DNA of 64,000 nt. It comes from Candidatus Bathyarchaeota archaeon (lineage in GTDB: Archaea > Thermoproteota > Bathyarchaeia > Bathyarchaeales > Bathycorpusculaceae). Shown here piece by piece: positions 8,713 to 27,618 of the stretch. The DNA lies in the NCBI GenBank assembly GCA_026014665.1, contig JAOZHX010000017.1, positions 248,001-312,000 of the forward strand, written 5' to 3'. The stretch's first letter is position 1; each line of letters begins with the position of its first letter. A program made the translations under genes and the position numbers. Under the pieces are notes generated by a model. The model saw only the letters and a list, made by a program, of their open reading frames with translations, ran no database searches and was not told the origin of the DNA.

Positions 8713-8870
8713 ATTGGTCCCTTCTCACGTTGAATGGGGATGTAGTGAAAAGACTTGTTTATCAGCTTTTAGTACATATTTAGCTAAAAACCATGGGTTT
8801 TTTGACATAACCATTGTTTGAGGGAACGTTAAGAAGGGGGAGCAGGAACGATGAGAAAATGCATTTGCGA

Positions 8871-9256
8871 CTATGGAGACGTCGGAGTATTCTCGAAGAT
8901 GCCGAATTGTTGCCGTCTGGGTCAAGCGCCAGCGCGAACCAGCCCATGCCTGGAATCTCTGTTTTTGGCATGATGATTTGTCCGCCTAAAGCCGTTATTT
9001 TTTTGCTGTATTCTTCAACAGATTCAACGCCGATGTAGTTGATTGGTTTGTGCTCAGGGTTTTGCTTTTTCATCATGCCACCGTTAACTCCAGGACGCAA
9101 AGGGTTGCCCATCTCATCGACCGGAACTGTAGACACACTGTAGTACTCGTTGAATTGGGTTTTCTCAATTTTCCAGCCGAAAAGGTCAGAGTAGAATTTT
9201 TTTAGTTTCTCAACATCGTTTACTGGAATTTCAAAATGAACAATCGTATGATCCAT
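8871..9256 (-). pseudogene. VOC (glyoxalase/bleomycin-resistance fold) protein with a one-base frameshift
   Basis: Starts MDHTIVHFEIPVNDVEKL and continues FYSDLFGWKIEK and GVNGGMMKKQ, then GWFALALDPDGN: a single-unit vicinal oxygen chelate protein whose HFEIP and late acidic positions usually hold a metal. After DPDGN the frame goes wrong. Shifting by one base gives FGIFENTPTSP and a stop at 8871, exactly the ending such proteins have. One missing T near 8912 explains it. Without correction the frame runs on to 8780 with 50 unrelated residues. Either a recent pseudogene or a sequencing error. Small-molecule function not predictable. Confidence 0.75.
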
Positions 9257-9356
9257 AAAAAATCGCCAAAAACTAGAAAGCAACGCCCGTATAAATCAGT
9301 TGCTTAAACGTTAATTACTAACGTTAAAAATTAAAAAAACAAAAAAAGATGGCGAT

Positions 9357-10781
9357 TTATGGTTGCCATTTCTCTATGAGATATTTGGGTATCTCGCTGC
9401 TGTCTCGTGGTCCAACTTGGACTTTCCAGCCGCTGAGTTCTTCGATTTCGCCGCTGATGCGTGAGGCTTTGCCGGGGATGATGATGTTGCGGTGCTTGAC
9501 TTTGCTTTCGATGCCTGACTGCTTGATTGCTTCTGCAACCTTTTCTGCTGTGAGTTTGCGTCCTGCAACTCCGCTGTCTATGGCTGAACCTTCCGTTTCG
9601 ACCACGATTAGGTAGGCGTTTATCTTGTTGCTTTCGATATCTGAGGCGACGGTGTAGTATGTTAAAGCGAAGTTTGAGGTGAACAGCACAGGTGATTTCT
9701 CGTCAGGGGTACCGAATACTTTCAGGCCCGGTGCGACTGCGACGGGTTTACGCGGGTCAGTGTAGATGTTCTGGCGTAGCACGGTTGTTGGTAGCAGGGA
9801 CCATCCGCTGTCGCTGTGCATGACAATCACGTCTGCGAAGCGTACAACTAGCATTGAAGCGATGTATGCTTCTCGCCACTTGATGAGGTCGTCGGCTGTT
9901 TCGCCCTTGTCTGCCCATGCAACCATCGGGACACCCATGAGTGGGAAACCTGCGAGTTCTTCGCCGCCCTTGGTTGCTGCTCGCCTTAGCATGGTGAAGT
10001 TGTTTATCGTATCTGCGAGTCCTTCGTTGGGGAAGGTTCCAGGGTCTAAGACTATGTCGGTTACGCCGTAAGCCATCAAGGTTTTTACTAGGGAGACAAG
10101 AGTTGTCATGTCGTTTGGTGCGGAAGCGACCAGCGGGCAATTGTACATTAGAGCTAACTCTGCCATGTCTTTCCAGTTGCTTGCGGTTGCTGCGTAGAGG
10201 AGCGGTCGTGCTTTGGGCGCTGCCATTAAGCCTGCTTCAGCAATTGATGGGTTTAAGGTGCACAGAATCATCGGCAGCTTTGTGGTTTCGGAGACTTTCT
10301 TAACGGCTGCCTTGAACTTGTCAGCGTCTTCGGAGGTGCATCGTACGGCTATCATGTCAAGCTTTAGGGTGTTGCCGATGTATTCGAAGCTAAAGTTGTC
10401 TGTGCGTTTCACTCGTGACTCGATTTCTTGAGATGACATGTCGTCTGTTACGTCGATTGCGATGGCTGTCGGGTTGGTGTATGTGAATTCGTGGCGGTAC
10501 ATGACGAGTTTGCCGCCGAGTTTCTTGGCACTGTCGCCGACGCCTACGACGACTTCTTTAACGGCTGGTTTTAAGAGTTCTTTGAGTTTAGCGTACGCTT
10601 TCTCGTTTTCCTTCTTTAGCAGCGGTGGGCACTGGTCAACGGTCATTTCTCGGTTGACAATTTTGGTGGCAAAAGCCATGCAGTTGTCGACGCCGCATTC
10701 TTTACAGTTAATCTTTGGAAGAAGCTTGTAGATGTCTATGGGGCTTAGTTCTTTTAATCCAGCTTTCTTTTTCTCGCTCAT
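9357..10781 (-). CDS. cdhE: CODH/ACS complex gamma subunit (large corrinoid Fe-S protein subunit)
   Basis: 474 residues. The N-terminal Fe-S domain carries C26, C29, C34 and C51 (INCKECGVDNC, then DQC), the [4Fe-4S] ligand set of the corrinoid protein. The middle is a TIM-barrel domain and the C-terminal part (about 330-474) the B12-binding domain, with AGRKLTAEKVAEAI and IIPGKASRISGEIEELSGW. With the delta subunit it accepts the methyl group from methyl-tetrahydropterin on cob(I)amide and passes it to the acetyl-CoA synthase subunit. Last gene of the cdh operon, 13 bases downstream of cdhD. Confidence 0.95.
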   Translation of the reverse strand: MSEKKKAGLKELSPIDIYKLLPKINCKECGVDNCMAFATKIVNREMTVDQCPPLLKKENEKAYAKLKELLKPAVKEVVVGVGDSAKKLGGKLVMYRHEFTYTNPTAIAIDVTDDMSSQEIESRVKRTDNFSFEYIGNTLKLDMIAVRCTSEDADKFKAAVKKVSETTKLPMILCTLNPSIAEAGLMAAPKARPLLYAATASNWKDMAELALMYNCPLVASAPNDMTTLVSLVKTLMAYGVTDIVLDPGTFPNEGLADTINNFTMLRRAATKGGEELAGFPLMGVPMVAWADKGETADDLIKWREAYIASMLVVRFADVIVMHSDSGWSLLPTTVLRQNIYTDPRKPVAVAPGLKVFGTPDEKSPVLFTSNFALTYYTVASDIESNKINAYLIVVETEGSAIDSGVAGRKLTAEKVAEAIKQSGIESKVKHRNIIIPGKASRISGEIEELSGWKVQVGPRDSSEIPKYLIEKWQP

Positions 10782-10794
10782 CCGTCATGTCTCC

Positions 10795-12027
10795 TTAAGC
10801 TTTAACCTTGACCCAGTCAACGTATTTTGCTGGGTCTGCTTTTTTGCCGCTTGTCAGGTAGTTTGTGACGTCTTTTAGGGTTTTTACGGCTGCCGGATGC
10901 ATCATCATGAACAAGTCAACGCCTGCAAGCAACAGTGTTAGCGCGGTTGTTACTTCCCAGAGTGGTCCTCGAAGCTCGCGTGGTTCCCATTCAGCAGACA
11001 TTTTGAGCCATGCTTCACGGGCTGCCCAAGCGTTCGTGGTTCCTGAAGACATTGGGTGTGCAAGTTCAGAGTCGCCCATCAATCCGCCGATTCTTGCGCG
11101 TTCCATGTTAGTGAAGGCGTAGTCTAAGCCGTAGCCGAGTGCTGCCGTAGTCAAGTCCATGACGATGTCTTCTCTTGCAAGGTAATCATATAGGCGCCTG
11201 TTTAGTTCACGTGCCAGGTTTAGATCCATCGGCGTGAAGGATAAGACTGCGTGACCGTTCTTCTTGATGTACTTTGCACAGCGTTCCACGTCCATATCGC
11301 GGGTTACTGAACTGATGAGGAAGCGTTCGTTGGGGAAGGCATTGCAGATTGCCTCGAAAACGTCTGCGTCTTTGACGGGGTCGCCGCATCCGCCGATGAC
11401 GAGTGGAACATCGACGGCTTGAAGGATCTTCTCAACGGTTTTTACTGCGTCTTGGGGCTTGGCGTCTTTTAGCAGGGGGTCGATGCTGATTAAGTGGACT
11501 GTAACCATATCTGCACCGAACTTTTCGACTGCGAGTTTTGCCCATGCTGCGGGGTCGCCGACGACGTCTTTAACATGCATCTTAACCGCCTTTGACAGGG
11601 GAACTTCCATGTCGAAGACATCAAGGGTGACGACGGGCTTATGGGTTAATGGTTTTTCAAAAGTGTAGAAGGCAGGAGAGACTTCTCCGCCGATTGTGAG
11701 TGAGCGTCCGCGTGTTCCGCCTTCGCTTCTTGTTCCGCCCAGTTTGACTTCGGTGATCTTGTTTGGGTAGGTTTCGATGGGTGGCACGAAAGCCGCTTGC
11801 AGCATGTTGACAGGTTTTCCGCCCGGCACTGCGGCTGGAAGCTTTAGTTTGGGCATTACTTGCCCAGCTGCGCCTGCCTCGAAGATGATTTCAAGCTCTT
11901 TAGCGTCAAGTTCGAAGTCTTCCAGCTCGATTTGCTGGAATTTTGCGAGGGCTTCCAGTAGTTCTTCGCTTAGTTTCAGTCCTTCAGCGTTTTTTTTGTC
12001 TGTGTCGTGGTGAGTCAAAAGAGTCAC
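10795..12027 (-). CDS. cdhD: CODH/ACS complex delta subunit (small corrinoid protein subunit)
   Basis: 410-residue TIM-barrel protein with the family segments FYTFEKPLTHKPVVTLDVFD, PLVIGGCGDPVKDADVFEA, and MDLTTAALGYGLDYAFTNME. It pairs with the gamma subunit in the corrinoid Fe-S protein that shuttles methyl groups between tetrahydropterin and acetyl-CoA synthase. The start is a GTG whose last two bases overlap the TGA stop of cdhC in GTGA, so the two are translationally coupled. The first 70 residues are acidic and more variable, usual in archaeal CdhD. Confidence 0.95.
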   Translation of the reverse strand: MTLLTHHDTDKKNAEGLKLSEELLEALAKFQQIELEDFELDAKELEIIFEAGAAGQVMPKLKLPAAVPGGKPVNMLQAAFVPPIETYPNKITEVKLGGTRSEGGTRGRSLTIGGEVSPAFYTFEKPLTHKPVVTLDVFDMEVPLSKAVKMHVKDVVGDPAAWAKLAVEKFGADMVTVHLISIDPLLKDAKPQDAVKTVEKILQAVDVPLVIGGCGDPVKDADVFEAICNAFPNERFLISSVTRDMDVERCAKYIKKNGHAVLSFTPMDLNLARELNRRLYDYLAREDIVMDLTTAALGYGLDYAFTNMERARIGGLMGDSELAHPMSSGTTNAWAAREAWLKMSAEWEPRELRGPLWEVTTALTLLLAGVDLFMMMHPAAVKTLKDVTNYLTSGKKADPAKYVDWVKVKA

Positions 12028-13436
12028 CGTTTGTCTTTGCTGTCTTTGACGGTTGTGATGATGACTTTGTTAGCGTAGATCTTTGCATCTTTGAGTATTA
12101 TCTTGAATCCGCCTGCCATGATTGGGAGCGTGCCTGCGGTTGCAACCGGCATCATGGTGCCTGCTGCTTCCTCGGTGACTTGGAGTGCGGTTGCTTCTGC
12201 TGCTGGTGCTTCTTCAGCTGCCCATCTTGCGACGACTGGGTGATTCTTGGCTTTGAGGAATTCTTTGAGTTCATCGATGTTCTTTGCGTCTTCTTCAGTT
12301 GCGACTTTGTCGACGAGTTCTGCAGGAATGAAGTCTTTGACTTTCTCTTTGACTTCTTTGGGTACCCAAACGATTCGGTTCCATCCGCCGTCTGCTGCAA
12401 AGAACTTCTTGCTTCTCATGTACTCGATGCTCATGCCGTGGAACCCGTCGATTTGTCTTCCGCCTGCCGCTGAGTCTGCGAGAGTGCTGAAGGGTAAGCC
12501 GTTTACTGCTGCGCCCTTGAAGCTTCTTTGAACCACGCCTAAGCCGTCGACTTCTGGGATGTAGAAGGCTACTGCTTCGAAGCATCCACATGAAGTGTGC
12601 GGGTGGTCAAAGGCTGTGTACAACCAGATTTGGTTGACTTCTCCCATGGTGCGTTTCTTCGCCATTTCGTTGACGCCGCTGAATTCGCCTTTTTCTGCGT
12701 TGAGTAATTCTCCACGGTCGATTGCGAAGACTGGCCCTTTGGGGTCGATGCTTGCTGATGCTTTGCCATCAAACCAGCTGATGGCTCCGCAGTTGCTGTA
12801 TCTTTGCGGTGTAATTACGCAGACGTGGCTTGGAGCGAACGATTGGCACAGTGCACAACCGTAGAATTTATCGACTTCTTCGTCTTTTAATCCTCTGGCT
12901 TTTGCGTCGCGAGCTTCGTATTCAGCCAATGCGCCGCTGTACATTTCTCGGATTTTAGCTGGGTCGGTTATGAAGGTGATTTGGACTTTCTCTATGATTG
13001 GCAGTTCGCTCTTGAAGAGGCGGTAGAGTACTTTGCCGATTGGTTCAAAACTGTTTAAGCCTTTCTGGAATGCTTTCTTGCCAAGGCGTATCCAGATGTC
13101 ATAGCGCTGGTTTAGGTGCATGAAGCCTTCGATGTAGTTGAGGTAGCCGTGGATGCGTCGTTCGATGACGCCTTCGAGTCCTTGATCGAGGGTGGCGCCT
13201 GCGGCTTCGACGAGGATGCCGAGGGGGTAGACGCCGCCTTCCTTCATGTCTTTGATGTCTGGACCGATTATGGTGATTTTTCCATCATCGATCTGGTCGA
13301 GGGGTTTTACTTTTGCGAGTTCAAACTTTTCTTTAACTGTGGGTCCGCCGAGTTCAACTTGCATGTCGTTTCTTCGGATACGTTCGCCTTCGTAGATTAC
13401 GCCAACATCTACAGGTATATCTTTAAACATTGACAT
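12024..13436 (-). CDS. cdhC: CODH/ACS complex beta subunit (acetyl-CoA synthase)
   Basis: 470 residues when read from MSMFKDIPVDVG, preceded by AAGGAGG; an in-frame ATG at 13457 inside cdhB is less likely because it would lie upstream of that site. The cluster-A binding cysteines are visible: C194, C197, C206 and C216 (GCALCQSFAPSHVC...SNC) and C283/C285 (HTSCGCFEAV). The protein lacks the N-terminal CODH-binding domain of bacterial AcsB, the archaeal form. It condenses CO, the methyl group and CoA to acetyl-CoA, or the reverse. The C-terminal region has an Ala/Glu-rich linker and a short beta tail. Confidence 0.95.
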   Translation of the reverse strand: MSMFKDIPVDVGVIYEGERIRRNDMQVELGGPTVKEKFELAKVKPLDQIDDGKITIIGPDIKDMKEGGVYPLGILVEAAGATLDQGLEGVIERRIHGYLNYIEGFMHLNQRYDIWIRLGKKAFQKGLNSFEPIGKVLYRLFKSELPIIEKVQITFITDPAKIREMYSGALAEYEARDAKARGLKDEEVDKFYGCALCQSFAPSHVCVITPQRYSNCGAISWFDGKASASIDPKGPVFAIDRGELLNAEKGEFSGVNEMAKKRTMGEVNQIWLYTAFDHPHTSCGCFEAVAFYIPEVDGLGVVQRSFKGAAVNGLPFSTLADSAAGGRQIDGFHGMSIEYMRSKKFFAADGGWNRIVWVPKEVKEKVKDFIPAELVDKVATEEDAKNIDELKEFLKAKNHPVVARWAAEEAPAAEATALQVTEEAAGTMMPVATAGTLPIMAGGFKIILKDAKIYANKVIITTVKDSKDKR

Positions 13437-13440
13437 TTTC

Positions 13441-13986
13441 TTATTGTCCTCCTTCATTAAATTTTGAAGTCATGACTTTGAGATTGTTTGCCCACTCTTC
13501 CAGGGTTGCGTTTGGGAAAGACCAGCTTGCATGTGGGTGATAGAGGTTGTCTAAGGTCATGGTTTTTTGGTCGGGTGCAAAGTGTTTAAGTCCAGAGAGT
13601 ATGAGTGCTTCCATGTAATAGGGTAAGCCCACGAACATTACGAGGTCGGGGTGGCCTTTGCCGTCGATTCCCTGCCATGTTGGGTCTACAACTCTCTGAC
13701 CTATATCCATTGCAGTCATGAAGGCTGCTGGTTGGTATCCGCGTTTTAGGAATTCTCCAACCATGTGGGCTGTTGCCACAACTGGGACTTTGCTTGCGTT
13801 TGCGAAGTCGATGATGTAGTCTATTAGTTGTTTGCCTTCCATCCAGCGTTGAGTTGCGTTGCTCCCCACAATTAGTAGGGGACGGGAGGCTTTTTTGATC
13901 ATTGCTACTGCTATCTCGGGTTTTTGGATTGGGTTTGCTTTTTTAGTGGCAGCTATTTCTGCACATTGCCATGGTTCACACGACAT
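13441..13986 (-). CDS. cdhB: CODH/ACS complex epsilon subunit
   Basis: 181 residues, matching the usual 165-195 of CdhB. It reads MSCEPWQCAEIAATKKANPI, then AMIKKASRPLLIVGSNAT, and FVGLPYYMEALILSGLKHF, the Rossmann-like fold of the epsilon subunit that binds the alpha subunit in the CO dehydrogenase component. It may assist electron transfer to FAD or ferredoxin. It starts six bases after the cdhA stop. Its own stop is at the site where the cdhC ribosome binding sequence lies. Confidence 0.93.
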   Translation of the reverse strand: MSCEPWQCAEIAATKKANPIQKPEIAVAMIKKASRPLLIVGSNATQRWMEGKQLIDYIIDFANASKVPVVATAHMVGEFLKRGYQPAAFMTAMDIGQRVVDPTWQGIDGKGHPDLVMFVGLPYYMEALILSGLKHFAPDQKTMTLDNLYHPHASWSFPNATLEEWANNLKVMTSKFNEGGQ

Positions 13987-16478: not shown

Positions 16479-17243
16479 TTACAGATAACCTAAGTTTTGG
16501 AGGATTTTCTGAACAGAAAGATAAGCTGGATTATCTTTGGGCAGGTCTAAGAGCGATTTTCCTGATAGAACATAGTCATCCAACTGCTCATCCTCAGCAA
16601 TTTTACCCAGGTACTTGAATTTCAATTCAGCCTCAGCTACGTTACCCAATTTCTCTGGAAAACGGTAGCCTCCGATTAAGTAAAAGTTTTCAAATTTCAT
16701 GTCAACTTCCTTGGCTATTTTGTAAGCTCTCTTGACATGATCCATTGACTTTTTGGAATGATCGAGTATATCGAATATGTCGTTCACGTGTGATGTTATG
16801 CGCCTGTTGAGGTTTTCAAGTCCAGCAGGAGAGTCTACAAGCACAAACCTGTAGTTTTTAGTCAACGATTCGAGGGCGCCCTTCAACGCTGAGTTAGGCA
16901 TGCAGTAGCAACCTTCAACCCATTTAGTGCCGACGGCAAGAAAGTCAAAGTTTTGGCTTTCATAAAGACCACTCTCCCAGATTCGGCTCTCGATGCGCTG
17001 GGTCGGAGGAACGCCTACTGTTGTGCCCCCTTGTTCAATGAAAGTGCTGACTAAAAGGTCGGCGATGGTGGCTTTGCCTGCTTCTTTGAGGTCTACTCCC
17101 AGCATTTCGGCAAGGTTTTGGTCTGGGTCAGCATCCACCAGCAAAAGCGGCGATTGCCCGGCTTCGATGAAGCATTTTGCCATTAATGCGGTGAAACTAG
17201 ATTTTCCGGTTCCGCCACGACCAATGGTTACGAGAATTTTCAT
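16479..17243 (-). CDS. CooC/AcsF-type nickel-insertion ATPase
   Basis: 254-residue deviant-Walker P-loop ATPase: MKILVTIGRGGTGKSS, with LLVDADPDQNLAEMLGV as the switch region. The C112-x-C114 pair in EGCYCMPN is the metal-binding motif of CooC-like maturation factors, which form a metal-bound dimer and load nickel into CO dehydrogenase or acetyl-CoA synthase. It lies directly upstream of the cdh operon on the same strand, separated by the cdhA promoter, and downstream of a second homologue. Which of the two serves CODH and which ACS cannot be read from sequence. Confidence 0.85.
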   Translation of the reverse strand: MKILVTIGRGGTGKSSFTALMAKCFIEAGQSPLLLVDADPDQNLAEMLGVDLKEAGKATIADLLVSTFIEQGGTTVGVPPTQRIESRIWESGLYESQNFDFLAVGTKWVEGCYCMPNSALKGALESLTKNYRFVLVDSPAGLENLNRRITSHVNDIFDILDHSKKSMDHVKRAYKIAKEVDMKFENFYLIGGYRFPEKLGNVAEAELKFKYLGKIAEDEQLDDYVLSGKSLLDLPKDNPAYLSVQKILQNLGYL

Positions 17244-17258
17244 ATGAACAACCTCGGG

Positions 17259-18038
17259 TTATAGGGGTTTGTTTAGCAAAAGCTCGCATATATTGTCTAT
17301 GGTTCTAACTGCGGGGATTTCCTTGTTCTTGAGCGGTGTTTCACCCAGCATGTCGGCTTCTATAATCTTTGGATCAAAAGGAACAAAAGAAAGCAACGCT
17401 ATGCCGTTTCTGTCAGCAAAACTTTGTATGGCGTCTTTTTGAGCGTCGTTCATGACTCTGTTGCCGACGAGGAAAAGCTGGTTCATGCCTGCAGCAGAAG
17501 CTAAATCATGGATATGCTTGGCTATTTCAAGCGATTTCAAATTTGAATCGGCCACAATCAGCAATGCATCCACCTGCCGTGCAGTGCCTCTACCGATGTG
17601 TTCCACGCCTGCCTCCAAATCCATAACCACCGCCTCATTTTGCTCAACAACCAGATACCGCAACAGAGCTCGTATAACAGCGTTTGGCGCGCACATGCAA
17701 CCTGCCCCCATGGAGTACACGGTTCCCATCACAATGAGGTTTACGCCCAACGGCGTCGGAACAGAATACTGCCTAACTATGTCATCGACCGAGAAGTTGA
17801 GGTTATAGACTCCTGAGTAACCTGTGCTAGTTTTGGATTCAACCAGCTGTTTGTTTTCAGAAATCGGCACAATCTTCCTTGTTTGCTCAGGAGTTAACCC
17901 CAGCGTCAACCCTAAATTGGGCGAGGAATCAGCGTCAATCGCAATCGTTTTTATTCCACGTGTGACAAACCCTCGTGCTAAGCCTCCTGCGATGAGAGTT
18001 TTGCCCACGCCCCCTTTTCCAGAAACGGCAATCTTCAT
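17259..18038 (-). CDS. CooC-type nickel-insertion ATPase, second paralogue
   Basis: 259 residues from MKIAVSGKGGVGKTLIAGGL; an upstream in-frame start at 18074 would add an unlikely MGGNLFLLVCDC leader. The switch is AIDADSSPNLGLTLG, and the metal motif C114-x-C116 lies in GAGCMCAPN. VVMDLEAGVEHIGRGTA is typical of CooC. It begins the minus-strand pair that leads into the cdh operon; 15 bases separate it from the next ATPase. Together they probably insert nickel into the C cluster and A cluster of the complex encoded beside them. Confidence 0.88.
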   Translation of the reverse strand: MKIAVSGKGGVGKTLIAGGLARGFVTRGIKTIAIDADSSPNLGLTLGLTPEQTRKIVPISENKQLVESKTSTGYSGVYNLNFSVDDIVRQYSVPTPLGVNLIVMGTVYSMGAGCMCAPNAVIRALLRYLVVEQNEAVVMDLEAGVEHIGRGTARQVDALLIVADSNLKSLEIAKHIHDLASAAGMNQLFLVGNRVMNDAQKDAIQSFADRNGIALLSFVPFDPKIIEADMLGETPLKNKEIPAVRTIDNICELLLNKPL

Positions 18039-18143
18039 ACAATCACAAACTAACAGGAAAAGATTTCCACCCAAATTTATTTACGTTTCTTCGAAAGAAC
18101 AAAAAACCGCCAGCGACTAAAAGCCGACAAGCCAGTTGCTCGC

Positions 18144-18217: not shown

Positions 18218-18415
18218 GCAAACAAGCATAAGAAGTAAACATCATAGTGGAAACTTTTTTTCCAATAAAGAGTCTTAAAGGAGCAAACGTTCGTTAGTGA
18301 GACCTCGTGATTTTGAAGAAACAGCGTGGCAACGCCAGCCTGCCAATACAAAGCTTGCGTATGCAAAAGATTTTTTAACCCTAAAGCCTCACCCATTAAC
18401 CGAGATGAAACCTCC

Positions 18416-19141
18416 ATGAAAATACTAAACGAATTTGTGCCAACACGAAAATTTCTAAAGCTAGCCGAAGAACTCAAAGACCTTGTTGACGGATGGAACG
18501 TTACAGACAGTGCAGCCGGCTTCCCAGCGCCCAGCGGTGTCGTCGTCAGTTGCCTGCTCAAAAGCAAGTATCCAGAAAAATACGTCTGTCCCATATTCAT
18601 ATTGCACTACAAAGGCCCAGTTGAAGTAGGAGGCTTGGCCCTAGCAGCCGACATCGTCGGACTCGACGGCTTAGCCGTCACCATGGGCGACAAACCACGC
18701 TACGGTGAACCCATCAAAATGCTACCTTCATCCGAGGCAGCCCGCGACTTCATACGAAACACGGTGAAAACCAAAAACCTCAAACTCGGCTGCCTCCTGA
18801 CCGCCAGACGCTCCATTGAAGAAACCCTCGCCCGCGTCCGTGAGCCATGGGACTTCGTTTACTTCATGCGCCTTGAAGACTCATCCTTTGAAGCCCTAAA
18901 AGCAGTCTCAGCAGAATGCAAGAAACTCAACAAACCGCTCTTCGCCTACTTCCTCGTCGGTACAGCCAAAAACGTTGAGACCGTCAAGATGATTGGCTGG
19001 CCAACCGCTGCAACCATGGAAACCGTTGAAGAAAAAGCCGCTCAACTGGTTGGACTCGTCGACGGCATCATCGCAACTTGTGCAGGCGATGCCGAAGGCG
19101 ACAAAGAAATGCTTCGAAAACTCCAAAAGTTCAGAAGTTAA
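18416..19141 (+). CDS. Short MetF-like (methylenetetrahydropterin reductase family) protein
   Basis: 241 residues from MKILNEFVPTRKFLK; a further upstream ATG-less extension is not supported. The pattern FILHYKGPVEVGGLALAADIVGLDGLAVTMGD resembles the MTHFR barrel strand that ends in the FAD-contacting L-T-G-D segment. GCLLTARRSIEETLARVREPWDFVYFMRLEDSSFEALK then follows the MTHFR order of an acidic loop and barrel helices. In an organism using tetrahydromethanopterin, such a protein could reduce methylene- to methyl-pterin instead of F420-dependent Mer. Divergent from the CooC/cdh genes and followed by cofE. Family assignment is by pattern, so moderate. Confidence 0.55.
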   Translation: MKILNEFVPTRKFLKLAEELKDLVDGWNVTDSAAGFPAPSGVVVSCLLKSKYPEKYVCPIFILHYKGPVEVGGLALAADIVGLDGLAVTMGDKPRYGEPIKMLPSSEAARDFIRNTVKTKNLKLGCLLTARRSIEETLARVREPWDFVYFMRLEDSSFEALKAVSAECKKLNKPLFAYFLVGTAKNVETVKMIGWPTAATMETVEEKAAQLVGLVDGIIATCAGDAEGDKEMLRKLQKFRS

Positions 19142-20701: not shown

Positions 20702-21832
20702 ATGGAAGATCCTGAAGAAATCCCGCAAAACAATCCAAACGACGAGGGCCTGAGGAGCCGCAGTCCATTCTCGCTTCTGGATGGAGCAACTGCTCAGGTG
20801 CCTTCGATAAACCCTGAACTCTATTTTGAAAGTAAAATTGCCAGAGACCACAGCAAATCCCTCGAAGAACGGCTAGAATGCTTCGAAATAATCCTCGATT
20901 CCGAGGTGGGTGACACCAGCCTAACTAGAGCAAGGAATATAGAACGAGAAGTCGGACTCCGCCAAATCTATTTAAAATTTGAAGGCGGCAACCCCACTGG
21001 AACGCAAAAAGATCGTATAGCCTTTGCTCAAGCGCTCGATGCCCTTCGGAGGGGATACGACGAAATCACTGTTGCGTCCTGCGGTAATTATGGTGCTGCA
21101 ATCGCTTTGGCTGCTTCTTTAGCTGGATTACGCTGTTTAATCTACATCCCGGAGGATTACCATGCCAATCGCATCAAAGAAATCAAGAGCTTGGGCGCTG
21201 AGATAATTAAGACTCCGGGCGACTACGAGCAATCGGTTATGATTTCTAGGCAAGAAGCAGAAAAGAATGGATACTACGATGCTAACCCTGGAGGAAGCAA
21301 CACAAACATACAACTGAAAGCCTACGGCGAAATTGCCTATGAAATCTATGATGAACTTCGAGACGCTCCAGCGGCTGTTGCGGTTCCTGCCTCAAACGGC
21401 TCCACCATCGCAGGCATTTACAGAGGCTTTCTGAGCCTTTACAACCGGGGAAAGACGTCCCGTATTCCACGCTTCATCGCGGGCTCATCCTACGGTATGA
21501 ACCCAATAATCAACGCGTTTGTCAAGAACATGGCACACTGCTATGACCTTAAACCGGAAAAAATTAGGAACACCCAGATCAACGAGCCCCTGATTAACTG
21601 GCGTTCCATTGACGGCGACTACGCGTTGGCAGCCATCAGGCAAACTCATGGATGGGCAGCGTACGCTACTGACAAGAGCATGATGGATTATGCACGTTTG
21701 ATCAGGGAAAAGGAAGGTCTCAGCGTCTTGCCTGCTTCCACAGCAGGACTGATAGCGCTTCTTGACAGACATAAGAAGGAACCCTATCCTGGCGACCGTT
21801 ACGTTGTAATTCTAACGGGACGCAAAGCGTGA
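20702..21832 (+). CDS. Threonine-synthase-like PLP-dependent (fold II) enzyme
   Basis: 376 residues. After an unusual 85-residue N-terminal region, the fold-type II core begins VGDTSLTRARNIEREVG; FEGGNPTGTQKDR holds the PLP-binding Lys, ASCGNYGAAIALAASLAG binds the phosphate and substrate carboxylate, and VAVPASNGSTIAGIYRGF is the second phosphate loop. Threonine synthase, threonine dehydratase and cysteate or diaminopropionate enzymes share this pattern, so the substrate is open. Its stop overlaps the DUF1611 gene by four bases, tying it to the DUF1611/PP-loop group rather than to threonine biosynthesis. Confidence 0.75.
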   Translation: MEDPEEIPQNNPNDEGLRSRSPFSLLDGATAQVPSINPELYFESKIARDHSKSLEERLECFEIILDSEVGDTSLTRARNIEREVGLRQIYLKFEGGNPTGTQKDRIAFAQALDALRRGYDEITVASCGNYGAAIALAASLAGLRCLIYIPEDYHANRIKEIKSLGAEIIKTPGDYEQSVMISRQEAEKNGYYDANPGGSNTNIQLKAYGEIAYEIYDELRDAPAAVAVPASNGSTIAGIYRGFLSLYNRGKTSRIPRFIAGSSYGMNPIINAFVKNMAHCYDLKPEKIRNTQINEPLINWRSIDGDYALAAIRQTHGWAAYATDKSMMDYARLIREKEGLSVLPASTAGLIALLDRHKKEPYPGDRYVVILTGRKA

Positions 21833-22887
21833 GCATGATGCCTAAGGAAAAAGCGCTAATATACTGTGATAGAGAGTTCCAAAACGCAAACGGCAAAACA
21901 GCCCACGGATTAATTCGTTACACGACACGTTACGATATAGTAGGCGTCGTCGACTCCACTGCACCCATGGGTGATGCAGGAGAAATCTTGGACGGCAAAA
22001 AGAGAAACATTCCCTTATTCCAGAACCTATCAGAAGCCATCCAAAAAAGCCAGCCGCAGACACTAGTCATCGGAGCAGTTTCAGAAGGGGGGATTCTTCC
22101 GAAGGGCTATGACAGAGCAATCATCTATGCTTTGCAACAAAGCCTAAACATCGTCTCAGGGCTTCATCAGTTCATCTCAGACGACCAAACCTTCACCGCC
22201 ATAGCTAACAAGAACGGCTGCAAAATCACCGACGTACGCAAAATCTACAGGGATTACAAGCGCTTCTACACAGGAGAAATCAGCAAAGTCGGCTCAACCA
22301 GAATCGCAACCTTAGGCACCGACTCAGCGATTGGCAAACGCACCACCGCCGTCATGATAGTCAACGAACTGCGAAATCGCAAGCGCACAGCAGACATGAT
22401 TTTCACAGGGCAAACGGGTTGGATGCAAGGCTGGTCACACGGCGCAGTCATAGACGCCATGATAAACGACTTTGTTGCAGGCGGAATCGAAGGCGGCATA
22501 CTCGACGCATGGAACGACGACAAACCAGAGTTCCTAATAATCGAAGGACAGGGCAGCTTGGTGCATCCGTTCTTTCCAGGCGGCTTTGAGATCCTAGCTG
22601 CAGGGCAAATCCACGGCTTCACCCTGCAAGATGCACCTGGACGCCCAAATTTAGATGGCTTTCCAGGGTACTCGATGCCTGATCCCATGCGAGTCGTCAA
22701 GATAGCCAAACTCCTCTGTGAACGTCCCCTCTTAGGCATAAGCATTAATCACGAGCGCCTATCCCCTATGGAAGCTGAAAAAGTAAAAGGAAAATACCGC
22801 CAACGATTCAAGGTGCCGGTTGAAGACCCCATAGTAGACGGGGTAGAGCAGATAGTTGATGCTATAGAAAAGCTTCGGGACGGTTAA
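21829..22887 (+). CDS. DUF1611 P-loop protein (DgcN-like)
   Basis: 352 residues. An N-terminal Rossmann-like domain (ALIYCDREFQNANGKTAHGL, IVGVVDSTAPMGDAGEILDG) is followed by a P-loop at GTDSAIGKRTTA and IEGQGSLVHPFFPGG and INHERLS motifs, all typical of DUF1611. One characterised bacterial group, DgcN, acetylates D-glutamate; bacterial homologues often lie beside dipeptide or N-acyl amino-acid epimerases. Here the neighbours are a PLP enzyme (four-base overlap) and a PP-loop protein resembling a glutamate epimerase. Family is clear, activity inferred by analogy. Confidence 0.8.
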   Translation: MSMMPKEKALIYCDREFQNANGKTAHGLIRYTTRYDIVGVVDSTAPMGDAGEILDGKKRNIPLFQNLSEAIQKSQPQTLVIGAVSEGGILPKGYDRAIIYALQQSLNIVSGLHQFISDDQTFTAIANKNGCKITDVRKIYRDYKRFYTGEISKVGSTRIATLGTDSAIGKRTTAVMIVNELRNRKRTADMIFTGQTGWMQGWSHGAVIDAMINDFVAGGIEGGILDAWNDDKPEFLIIEGQGSLVHPFFPGGFEILAAGQIHGFTLQDAPGRPNLDGFPGYSMPDPMRVVKIAKLLCERPLLGISINHERLSPMEAEKVKGKYRQRFKVPVEDPIVDGVEQIVDAIEKLRDG

Positions 22888-22978
22888 CTCCACGAACCTC
22901 GCATGCCTCAACTTCATAGAAATCAGCGACCCAGAAATCAAAGGAAACGGCGCAAGCACACGAATAATTTGTGAGGAC

Positions 22979-24331
22979 TTGGATGGAGAGCAATCCAGCT
23001 TTAAAATTCTTGCAAGATATGAAGCCCCAATAGCAACAGGACATCAACCGTTTTTACGGCTTGCCTCAGTTATGCCGGTCCTTAACTACGGCTTGTTCAC
23101 CAAGGAAATCCGGCTTAAATACCCAATCAGCCAATCCGACGCGTCATTGCTTCAAGACCTCTTAGACATCTTCAGCAAGGACATTTTCATAAACAAACTA
23201 ATCCGCCGAAAAAACCCCTACATACTGCCCGAGTTCCGCTTAACAGAGCAGGATGCAACACAAGAAAACGCCAAGCCGCTTGCAACGCTCAAACCAACCG
23301 CCATGACAGAGGACAGAGCAATTTGTTCTGAGTTTGAGGAAGGCTCCTGCGGGGTGCTTTCCAGCGGCGGCAAAGAAAGCCTGCTCACATATGCCATGCT
23401 CAAAGAAGCAGGCGCCAAAGTTTATCCGCTATACGTTAACGAAAGCGGAGGACACTGGCGAACAGCACTTCCAGCTTACCGACACCATAAAACTAACGAA
23501 CCGAACACACGCCGCGTCTGGCTTAACGTAGACAGGTTCTACACTTTCATGCTAGACCATCTCCGAATCATCCGCCCCGACCACCGAAAAGTCTGGTTGG
23601 ACACTTACCCCATCCGCTTATGCATCTTCCCTGTCTACGTGTTCTATCTGCTACCGCTGTTTGTCGCCGAAAAAATCGGCAACCTCCTCATCGGAAGTGA
23701 ATTTGACGACCCCCGCCTTTCACCCTACTACAAGGACATAAAACACTATTATGGTGTTTATGACCAAACCCAAGACTTCGACCTGCGAATGGAACAATGG
23801 TACCAAAAACGCATGCCAAACATGCGTCAATGGAGCGCAGTCCGCCCCATCTCTGGCTTAATCGTTGAACGCATCCTAACCAGCCGTTACCCCCAACTCG
23901 CTAAGAACCAGCGTTCCTGCCACAGCTGCCACTTCCAAAACAGCGAAATCATACCATGCGGTTCCTGCAGCAAGTGCTTAGGCATCCAGCTTTTCCTGCG
24001 AGCAAACAACATTGACCCAGCAATGATGGGTTACAGTAAAAGAGACATCAGCCTATTCGCTGAACGGTTCGCTAAGGGGGGTTTGAGGCTGGATGAGGAC
24101 GAGCGGGAGCACGCAGCGTTTTTGGCGGGAAAACTTGACCCATCCGTGCAGGGTATAGAGCATGCTCATGTGGAAACCATTCATCTCCACAAAGGCACGG
24201 GTGACTTGCAGCTTATCCCTAAACGCTACAGAAAAGCCCTGCTCAACATAATCGAGCAGTACACAAAAGGCTTCACAAAATTAGAAAATGATGTTTGGGT
24301 TCCAGCAGCTGAGCCTAACTTAGAGTTTTAA
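22979..24331 (+). CDS. PP-loop ATP-pyrophosphatase-fold protein, MurL-like
   Basis: 450 residues from TTG at 22979 (GTGAGG just before). The same frame stays open back to 22868 with plausible protein sequence but no usual start codon, so the N-terminus may be longer. Around residue 120 is GVLSSGGKESLLTYAMLKEAG, a PP-loop that binds and adenylates. LIGSEFDDP and a cysteine cluster (SCHSCHFQNSEIIPCGSCSKC) follow. The order PP-loop, acidic loop, C-G-x-C-x-K-C resembles MurL, which epimerises L-Glu of UDP-MurNAc-L-Ala-L-Glu through an adenylate. An archaeon without murein would need another substrate. Its end overlaps the convergent GNAT gene by 17 bases. Confidence 0.55.
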   Translation: MDGEQSSFKILARYEAPIATGHQPFLRLASVMPVLNYGLFTKEIRLKYPISQSDASLLQDLLDIFSKDIFINKLIRRKNPYILPEFRLTEQDATQENAKPLATLKPTAMTEDRAICSEFEEGSCGVLSSGGKESLLTYAMLKEAGAKVYPLYVNESGGHWRTALPAYRHHKTNEPNTRRVWLNVDRFYTFMLDHLRIIRPDHRKVWLDTYPIRLCIFPVYVFYLLPLFVAEKIGNLLIGSEFDDPRLSPYYKDIKHYYGVYDQTQDFDLRMEQWYQKRMPNMRQWSAVRPISGLIVERILTSRYPQLAKNQRSCHSCHFQNSEIIPCGSCSKCLGIQLFLRANNIDPAMMGYSKRDISLFAERFAKGGLRLDEDEREHAAFLAGKLDPSVQGIEHAHVETIHLHKGTGDLQLIPKRYRKALLNIIEQYTKGFTKLENDVWVPAAEPNLEF

Positions 24332-24791
24332 CCATGCGTACAGCGTCGCGGGTGCCGCAATGCTCAAACCTGTAGTAGCCGACCAGCCGCTCATTAACCA
24401 TGTAACCTGCTTTCTTGTACAATTCAATCGCTGCCTTATTCCCCTCAGACACTTCTAGCTGCGAAAATTTCATTCCTCGAGTTTTCATGTCCTCTTCAGC
24501 CGCAGCCAGAAGTCTAAGTCCAACGCCTCGACGCTGAAAGGCGGGTGCAACATCGATGGTCTCGATTCCTCCAACGATTGTTCCTTTTCGGTAGAGCACA
24601 ATAATGAATCCTCGTAAAGCCTTAGAGTCAGTTTCAACAAAACAGGCGCTGTTTGCTCTAAGAATCAGGTAGGCAAGTTGAGGTTTAGAGTAAGCAGTAG
24701 GGTCGGGAAAGCATTCTCTCTCAATTTCTGCAATTGCATCTATGTCATCGGCGGTTGCTTTTCGGATGATTGCGCTTACCAAATTGGTCAA
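24315..24791 (-). CDS. GNAT-family N-acetyltransferase (RimI-like)
   Basis: 158 residues. IRKATADDIDAIAEIERECF is the first strand-helix of the GNAT fold. IDVAPAFQRRGVGLRLL holds the Q/R-x-x-G-x-G/A acetyl-CoA pyrophosphate loop, and LEVSEGNKAAIELYKKAGYM is the RimI-type fourth motif, followed by VGYYRF. Archaeal relatives acetylate protein N-termini; a small-molecule substrate cannot be excluded given the amino-acid locus it overlaps at its 3' end. Start TTG at 24791 is the most likely one. Confidence 0.8.
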   Translation of the reverse strand: MTNLVSAIIRKATADDIDAIAEIERECFPDPTAYSKPQLAYLILRANSACFVETDSKALRGFIIVLYRKGTIVGGIETIDVAPAFQRRGVGLRLLAAAEEDMKTRGMKFSQLEVSEGNKAAIELYKKAGYMVNERLVGYYRFEHCGTRDAVRMVKTLS

Positions 24792-24919: not shown

Positions 24920-25870
24920 ATGAAAGTACCAGTAAAAGACTACGAGTTCACCGAATCAATGAGCGTAAACGAGCTTGTTGAGCAGATGCAGGCGGCATGG
25001 GGCTTCACCGCGGGCAAGTTGGCGACAGGCGTCAACATTATGGAATCGATGATAAAAACAAAGGGCTGCGTCAAATTCCTCTCGTTCACCGCCGACATAA
25101 TTGCCACAGGCACCCGCGGGGTCATCCGCGAGCTGGTTAAACGCAAACTCGTCGACGTCTTAATCACCACCTGCGGCACTCTCGACCATGATGTTGCCCG
25201 CTGCTGGAAAGACTACTACAAAGGCAGCTTCATCATGAACGACAGCAAACTGCATCAGGAAGGTTTAAACCGATTGGGCAACGTGCTCGTGCCAAACGAA
25301 AGCTACGGCATAATCATAGAGCAAAAAATCATTCCGATGCTCGAAGCCCTCTACCAAGAAGGCAAACGCGAACTCTCCACCACAGAGCTTTGCCGCGAAA
25401 TCGGGTTGCGATGCTGCAACGAATCCTCGATTCTGTATTGGGCAGCCAAAAACAACATCCCCGTCTTCGTTCCCGGCATAACCGATGGCTCCGTGGGGTA
25501 TCAGCTGTGGTTTTTTAGCCAAGACCACAAAGACTTCCGAGTAAACCTGCTCAAAGACGAAGACGACCTGAACAACATCGTGTTTGACGCCAAAAAAAGC
25601 GGCGCTCTCATCGTCGGCGGAGGCATAAGCAAGCACCACACGATTTGGTGGAACCAATTCAAAGACGGCTTAGACTACGTTGTCTACATAACCACGGCAG
25701 ATGAGTGGGATGGAAGCCTCAGCGGAGCACGCCCAAGAGAAGCAGTTAGCTGGGGCAAGATCAACGAGAAAGCAAAGATGATAATGATTGAGGGCGACGC
25801 CACAATGATACTGCCAGTAATGACAAGCGCCCTAATTGATCGCTTAAGCAAAAATAAAACTAAAGCTTAA
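24920..25870 (+). CDS. dys: Deoxyhypusine synthase
   Basis: 316 residues with the family landmarks ANIMESM-like GVNIMESMIK, LSFTADIIATGTRGVIRELV, ITTCGTLDHDVAR, VPGITDGSVGYQLW, LIVGGGISKHHTIW and ITTADEWDGSLSGARPREAVSWGKI. The Lys of SWGKI is the catalytic residue that forms the enzyme-aminobutyl intermediate. It uses spermidine and NAD to modify a lysine of translation factor aIF5A. It stands alone on the plus strand, with a divergently related copy on the opposite strand 660 bases away. Confidence 0.93.
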   Translation: MKVPVKDYEFTESMSVNELVEQMQAAWGFTAGKLATGVNIMESMIKTKGCVKFLSFTADIIATGTRGVIRELVKRKLVDVLITTCGTLDHDVARCWKDYYKGSFIMNDSKLHQEGLNRLGNVLVPNESYGIIIEQKIIPMLEALYQEGKRELSTTELCREIGLRCCNESSILYWAAKNNIPVFVPGITDGSVGYQLWFFSQDHKDFRVNLLKDEDDLNNIVFDAKKSGALIVGGGISKHHTIWWNQFKDGLDYVVYITTADEWDGSLSGARPREAVSWGKINEKAKMIMIEGDATMILPVMTSALIDRLSKNKTKA

Positions 25871-26532: not shown

Positions 26533-27618
26533 TTATGCTTTTGGTATGCCTTTGAAGATCCAGCTCATATCTGGACCTTTCCGTTTCTCTGGAACTCGCT
26601 CGGCGAGCGCGTGGCAAATCAGCGGCAGCGCGATAGTTGCATCGCAGTAGCAGACGGCTCGGGTTCCGGTTTGGCTGTTGATTTTTCCCCAGCTTATCGC
26701 CTCTTCGAGGGTGCATCCGCTGAGCCCACCCCATTGTGGACTGTCAGTGGTGATTTGTATGGCGTATTTGTGAGGGTAGTAGTATTCTTGGAGGCTCTTG
26801 CGTAAGCCGCCTTTTCTGCCTTTAACACCTTTGTCTTCAGTCATGGGTGAAACGCTGATGGCGATGAGTTGCGTTAGGTCTTTGGGGACGCCTCCGCCGA
26901 TGTAGACGACGCCGACGTCTTTGGTTTTTGTGCCGATGCTGACGAATTCCTCAAACTCCCTGACGCTGTCAATGTGGACGTTGTGTCCTTTGTTTTTGGC
27001 TAGCAAGAAGGTTTCGCCATAGGCGCTGTCCACCATAGCTGGGCTGAAGATGGGCACGCCGTTGGCTGCTGCGACAGCGGAGATGGCGGGGATGTTTCGT
27101 TTGCCGAGGAACTTGCCAAGAAGATAGAGGAATTCGGCTGAGGTATAGTGGTAGTCTTCTCTGCAGGTCATCACAAACTCAGTGACCAGTTCTTCCATTT
27201 TGCGGTAGTCGGTTTCTTTGCCGAAGACGTCGTAGTACCTGTTGATGTCTGCTTCTAGGAGCGCTTGGTCGTCGACCATGTGGCTTCCCTGCCAGTACCC
27301 AAGCCCCATGGCATCCACGATGTCTTCGCTGACGTTGGCGCCCGTGGAGACCAAGACATCGATGAAGCGGTTTTCCATAAGCCAGTTGATGATGGTCCAC
27401 TGTCCTGCGGTGCTCATCGAGCCAGCGAAGCCCATGGCTATGACGAGGTCTTTTTCTTTAAGCATGTTTTCCCAAACGTCTACGGCTTCGCCGAGTTTTC
27501 TGCCTTGGTAGGCGGTTCTGCTCATTTCTTTGAGGAGTTGTGAGATTGGTTTTTGCTTTGTGACTTTGATTGGTTCAAGTTTCTTTCGGAAGTATGAATC
27601 GTTACTCATATAGTGCAC
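26533..27618 (-). CDS. Deoxyhypusine-synthase-like protein, second paralogue
   Basis: 361 residues, about 45 longer than the first copy. It keeps VIAMGFAGSMSTAGQW, DVLVSTGANVSEDIVDA, YIGGGVPKDLTQ, ITTDSPQWGGLSGCTLEEAISWGKI and the catalytic-type Lys in SWGKI. The substrate segments differ from the other gene: NWLMENRFIDVL replaces the usual motif, and an insertion GVKGRKGGLRKSLQEYYYP is present. DHS-family proteins of this group in bacteria and archaea work on small polyamines, for example in homospermidine synthesis, instead of aIF5A. That role is a guess here. The start may be ATG 27618 or 27609. Confidence 0.8.
   Translation of the reverse strand: MHYMSNDSYFRKKLEPIKVTKQKPISQLLKEMSRTAYQGRKLGEAVDVWENMLKEKDLVIAMGFAGSMSTAGQWTIINWLMENRFIDVLVSTGANVSEDIVDAMGLGYWQGSHMVDDQALLEADINRYYDVFGKETDYRKMEELVTEFVMTCREDYHYTSAEFLYLLGKFLGKRNIPAISAVAAANGVPIFSPAMVDSAYGETFLLAKNKGHNVHIDSVREFEEFVSIGTKTKDVGVVYIGGGVPKDLTQLIAISVSPMTEDKGVKGRKGGLRKSLQEYYYPHKYAIQITTDSPQWGGLSGCTLEEAISWGKINSQTGTRAVCYCDATIALPLICHALAERVPEKRKGPDMSWIFKGIPKA

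Follow-up and report, generated by a model that had tools for sequence, protein, structure and literature searches.

The 64,000-nucleotide stretch of bathyarchaeal DNA analysed here (the window) carries a conserved operon of three genes, which encode, in order, a threonine synthase-like (TS-like) PLP enzyme, a DUF1611 protein and a PP-loop enzyme related by its sequence profiles to the epimerase MurL (Table 1). By analogy with known systems, we tentatively propose, at somewhat short of an even chance, that the trio forms a small pathway in which a short peptide or amino acid is N-acylated and its carboxyl end is then activated with ATP and perhaps inverted.

Table 1 Features of the trio locus, in window positions
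Feature	Position	Strand	Details
TS-like gene, PRK06381-subfamily fold-type II PLP enzyme	20702..21832	+	376 aa; ~65-aa N-terminal extension
Presumed PLP-binding lysine K103 in PTGTQKDR	21008..21010	+	Invariant in 82/82 sequences of the family alignment; aligns with ThrC K108
DUF1611 gene, DUF1611_N (Rossmann-like) and DUF1611_C (P-loop)	21829..22887	+	352 aa; GTG start
Walker-A-like loop GTDSAIGKRTT of DUF1611	22315..22347	+	T164, D165, G169 and K170 invariant (15 homologues)
MurL/QueC-type PP-loop enzyme gene	22979..24331	+	450 aa; TTG start
PP-loop SGGKES, residues 129-134	23363..23380	+	From family alignments and motif scan
WSAVRPISGL motif, residues 285-294	23831..23860	+	Aligns with YSLLRPLSEL of the annotated X. 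sacchari MurL
C-x12-C-x2-C-x2-C (C314, C327, C330, C333), presumed zinc site	23918..23977	+	Cys invariant in 34/34 trio, f27 and MurL sequences
RimI-like GNAT acetyltransferase gene	24315..24791	-	Pfam and NCBIfam matches; convergent

An ORF check of the window recovered all four reading frames where the preliminary description had placed them. The first two genes overlap, as it had said, by 4 nt; the third, which it had following at once, begins after a gap of 91 nt. The GNAT gene, which it had grouped with the locus, lies outside the operon: it is convergent with the PP-loop gene, overlapping it by 17 nt, and being on the minus strand it is unable to share the trio transcript in this genome. 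It was therefore rejected as an operon member here and is an accessory at most. The observation that no murein genes were in view holds across the whole 94%-complete genome for the two families tested, the Mur ligase domain (Mur_ligase_M) and Asp/Glu racemase, both of which are absent. Elsewhere in the window there are two nearby deoxyhypusine-synthase-family genes (24920-25870, plus strand; 26533-27618, minus strand), one scoring above the PRK01221 cut-off and the other matching PRK00805 just below cut-off; the latter may be a paralogue with a different function. Two adjoining genes for ParA/MinD/CooC-like ATPases (16479-17243 and 17259-18074, minus strand; the Pfam scan covered the first) lie beside a gene at 18326-19141 that appears by eye to be methylenetetrahydrofolate-reductase-like and has no NCBIfam match.

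The linkage of the three genes is strongly conserved, the opposite of what the preliminary description had named as refuting its idea. When one genome per species was scanned, for 84,980 species in all, relatives of the PP-loop protein were encoded at 178 sites, in taxa including Bathyarchaeia, Thermoplasmatota, Thermococcus, Thermofilum, Tiamatella, Methanodesulfokora, Nitrososphaerales-like MAGs, NC10 bacteria, Caldisericota and a proteobacterial MAG. Among the best 80 of these 178, mostly on MAG contigs, 78 loci have a scored PP-loop ORF, and 66 of these have DUF1611 immediately upstream on the same strand; by tblastn the trio is also complete in L155, L189 and L214, where ORF picking had missed one gene. 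The full order (TS-like, DUF1611, PP-loop) recurs in Thermoplasmatota, Thermococcus, Thermofilum, Methanodesulfokora and NC10 bacteria, and an order shared between phyla makes chance an insufficient explanation, bearing out the earlier suggestion of a multi-gene locus. In one locus (L184), DUF1611 and the PP-loop protein share a single reading frame with no stop, which may reflect either a gene fusion or faulty assembly. Several genomes keep the PP-loop gene with the TS-like gene missing or elsewhere, and in Caldisericota the TS-like gene is not present nearby. All six bathyarchaeal loci of the species-wide scan have an adjacent GNAT gene, and in Thermococcus, Tiamatella and others such a gene lies directly 3′ of the PP-loop gene on the same strand.

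Within the class, we surveyed 257 genomes. The window-type PP-loop gene is present in 9, and DUF1611 in all 9 and one other; presence is patchy inside the genus. The TS-like gene is found in 25 genomes and the wider PP-loop family likewise in 25, with 24 of them common to both (Fisher p about 1e-31, a value that overstates independence since the genomes are related). No publication describing the operon was found in a literature search that left most subscription journals outside, so that within the literature searched the locus is indeed undescribed; the same search found no paper joining MurL with archaea, an epimerase and Ddl, and the two papers in it that mention DUF1611 apparently deal with other subjects.

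By hmmscan, the PP-loop protein matches no Pfam or NCBIfam family, PF06508 included. The NCBIfam MurL model (cut-off 700 bits) gives no match for it, several orthologues likewise fall short of that model singly, and its relatives score 10.6-33.4 bits. Profile-profile comparison links the trio proteins to a sister archaeal clade (f27) at 99.6-99.9%, f27 to MurL at 98%, and the trio directly to MurL at 91% over 189 columns; the trio also reaches QueC at 82%, but over merely the 39 columns of the PP-loop. HMM searches point in the same direction, to MurL over QueC. By sequence, the PP-loop protein is thus related to MurL, mainly through the f27 clade, and the MurL likeness first noted from motif order extends to the family, although the window protein alone misses the MurL model. 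A motif scan found the canonical QueC motifs (Y-x-Q-x-H-x-x-E, VPxRN and YPDC) missing from the protein, and its alignment contains many trio-specific invariant residues.

A tree of 81 PP-loop proteins, built by a quick method and containing long branches, divides into a trio group and an f27 group, the outgroup being four bacterial MurL-related rows (the bacterial MurL sequences were taken from plasmid records). One outgroup row is the annotated murL of Xanthomonas sacchari; the Pseudonocardia rows are annotated 'hypothetical proteins', and the one scanned matches NF041275 at 3e-89. L144, from a Myxococcales MAG contig, nests with Bathyarchaeia and was set aside as a bacterial case, as the contig may be mis-binned. 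The 'hypothetical' MurL-like proteins of two Pseudonocardia plasmids (L112 and L113) are each encoded by a gene overlapping a convergent WD40-repeat gene, with a third in L104. Of the archaeal proteins scanned, the one matching MurL best (1.8e-8) is encoded in L087, where its MurL-related PP-loop gene adjoins genes for an ABC-2 transporter pair and for a radical-SAM/DUF1848-like protein; the whole stretch (9444-13693) looks like a natural-product type locus.

The AlphaFold model of the window PP-loop protein is confident (mean pLDDT 94.4). Its best Foldseek matches are QatC and Cap9 (E about 3e-4), followed by QueC (E about 5e-3 to 1e-2), with TMt values of 0.67 for Cap9 and 0.63-0.67 for QueC, indicating that the predicted protein has a QueC-type core. 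The preliminary description had taken a structure match to a QueC-type enzyme as speaking against the MurL idea; such a match was found, but it does not discriminate. No sequence relative of MurL was found in the PDB copy searched, so that the fold cannot here tell MurL from QueC, and MurL also carries the four-cysteine motif, which in QueC, as C(x)8CxxCxxC, binds zinc (PMC13329287).

Most loci of the f27 clade place the PP-loop gene with a TS-like gene, a D-Ala-D-Ala-ligase-like ATP-grasp gene and a GNAT gene, without DUF1611; ATP-grasp and GNAT are sometimes one ORF. The same partners occur in Nitrosomonas (L216), where a trio-group PP-loop gene is followed by D-Ala-D-Ala-ligase-like ATP-grasp and GNAT genes and then by a DapF-like gene, which may be housekeeping. 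We infer that DUF1611 and the ATP-grasp/GNAT pair do comparable jobs. With ATP-grasp and GNAT replacing DUF1611, the PP-loop enzyme of either system would act on an amino acid or peptide that is N-acylated. In one f27 genome (L035), two PP-loop paralogues (8844-10286 and 11289-12647) lie on either side of one TS-like gene.

The DUF1611 protein belongs to its superfamily by both Pfam domains, PF07755 and PF17396, which score above gathering (N domain, 2e-21; C domain, 9e-53), and has solved relatives (7xrj, 2g0t and 2obn). DgcN, a D-glutamate N-acetyltransferase, puts an acyl group on D-glutamate (the roles of DgcN and DgcA are taken in part from their NCBIfam names). The parallel that had been drawn with this enzyme does not amount to equivalence: the window protein scores 171 bits against the NCBIfam DgcN equivalog, far below the cut-off of 480. 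Its P-loop is as fitting for a ligase as for an acyltransferase, a point against the proposed acylation.

Neighbouring genes in other lineages, dipeptide/N-acyl-amino-acid epimerases among them, fit the D- or acyl-amino-acid chemistry that had been suggested. In three NC10 genomes the trio is directly followed by a gene for an epimerase-type enolase (L-Ala-D/L-Glu-epimerase/DgcA-like), and in five archaeal loci, four from Thermoplasmatota and one bathyarchaeal, such an enolase and an M14 peptidase-like gene lie near it. PP-loop genes of Thermofilaceae have Asparaginase_2 next to them, and one further Thermoproteota genome carries it close to the trio; MFS transporters, whose best matches are mostly efflux-type families, are found nearby in Thermococcales, NC10 and Thermofilaceae. 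A D-aminoacyl-tRNA deacylase gene lies directly upstream of the trio, ahead of the TS-like gene, in Thermoplasmatales-type genomes (L203, L205, L208-L210 and L218), which may be synteny only; Tsr3, which adjoins the trio in Thermoplasmatales, was discounted as housekeeping synteny. None of these recurrent neighbours is constant and none stands beside the trio in the window, and a homology search of the window's own genome found no close homologue of the enolase-type epimerase of L145.

In the proposed pathway, the TS-like PLP enzyme would make or break a particular amino acid, and DUF1611 would acylate its amino nitrogen, as DgcN does with D-glutamate. The PP-loop enzyme would then adenylate the free α-carboxylate with ATP, acidifying the α-hydrogen, invert the centre and release the acid, as proposed for MurL. 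We infer each of these catalytic steps, together with substrate, direction and stereochemistry. Acylation, then ATP-driven activation with probable inversion, is favoured because of the described MurL reaction (PMC5808125, PMC8788868) and the conversion of D-Glu to L-Glu by DgcN-DgcA (PMC10845958). The trio order, the co-occurrence, the single frame of L184, the profile links, the shared motifs, the partner swap and the enolase neighbours all argue for the pathway; the missed MurL model, the best folds (QatC, Cap9 and QueC), the distance of DUF1611 from the DgcN cut-off, the lack of an L145-enolase homologue in the genome and the genomes with the TS-like gene missing or elsewhere weaken it. 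Glutamate as the substrate, and a solute, cap or surface peptide as the product, are among the earlier points that found no support. A fuller version is somewhat less likely: that a MurL-type epimerase works outside cell-wall synthesis, in murein-free archaea and across several archaeal and bacterial phyla, together with DUF1611 (or a Ddl-like ligase and GNAT) in the ATP-driven inversion of an N-acylated amino acid or peptide that a dedicated PLP enzyme provides.

The TS-like enzyme matches Pfam PALP (7e-59) and scores 436 bits against the NCBIfam model PRK06381 (cut-off 266) and 98 bits against the thrC equivalog TIGR00260 (cut-off 167). PRK06381 bears the name 'threonine synthase' in NCBIfam, and the gene could be merely a second threonine synthase, with DUF1611 and the PP-loop gene co-transcribed for unrelated reasons. 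This is highly improbable given the strong co-occurrence of TS-like and PP-loop genes and the presence of a separate 416-aa ThrC-like gene, one of six PALP genes in the genome, which directly adjoins a homoserine dehydrogenase gene and is likely the genome's ThrC. The remaining paralogues resemble a dehydratase, CysK (its gene adjoining a CysE-like one) and, in two cases, TrpB (identities set by sequence and context, without a library scan). Family-specific invariant residues argue the same way: SCGN, with C127, is present in 82/82 aligned members of both trio and f27 type, whereas the genome's ThrC-like protein has STGN. The window enzyme is thus probably not the genome's threonine synthase. 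Viral contigs searched with it gave no match.

A serious rival concerns the last step. QueC and Cap9 form amide-type bonds, and the PP-loop enzyme might be a ligase of this style that couples the adenylated carboxylate with ammonia or an amine and does not epimerise, so that the operon product would be an amidated or conjugated amino acid. QatC, Cap9 and QueC are the best solved-structure matches, the four-cysteine motif is of the same type and repurposing of QueC-family proteins is known (PMC13329287, PMC13279940); the absence of the canonical QueC motifs and of a PF06508 match, together with the preference of the sequence profiles for MurL, makes amide formation on balance unlikely. Less probable again is salvage, in which damaged proteins or scavenged murein peptides would supply D- or isoaspartyl/isoglutamyl amino acids and peptides. 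The route would run from import and trimming through acylation and ATP-driven inversion to the L form, ending in degradation by the PLP lyase, and would make sense of the transporters, M14 peptidase, Asparaginase_2, dipeptide epimerase and D-aminoacyl-tRNA deacylase found nearby in some lineages. These neighbours are, however, inconstant and missing beside the window trio, the transporters resemble mostly efflux types, and the MurL reaction (PMC8788868) goes from L to D, opposite to the direction that salvage would need.

Should acylation followed by inversion prove true, murein-free archaea would perform an ATP-driven stereo-inversion otherwise known from one bacterial cell-wall step, a conserved operon of unknown function, notably its DUF1611 branch, would gain a role, and Bathyarchaeia, Thermoplasmatota and hyperthermophiles would contain an unrecognised metabolite. 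The genes are few, linked and found in thermophiles, making direct enzymology feasible.

Among known systems, NAGGN-type synthesis (TIGR03103) likewise pairs ATP-grasp with GNAT, as the f27 operon does, but the ATP-grasp part of the fused f27 protein scanned is Ddl-like, and TIGR03103, considered for this pair, was rejected, not being among the best 25 NCBIfam matches of that one protein. The DgcN-DgcA pathway resembles the trio in that the window DUF1611 protein is homologous to DgcN and that NC10 trio loci add a DgcA-like enolase, whereas no such enolase stands beside the window trio. With QueC, Cap9 and QatC (PF06508), the window PP-loop protein shares the core fold and the zinc-type cysteine motif but neither the canonical QueC motifs nor the Pfam match. 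Finally, although its partners differ from those of MurL, with no adjacent MurD2, its host genome lacks the Mur ligase domain and it has invariant residues specific to the trio, it shares with MurL the PP-loop and four-cysteine core, the S-x-x-R-P-[IL]-S motif and a similar length.
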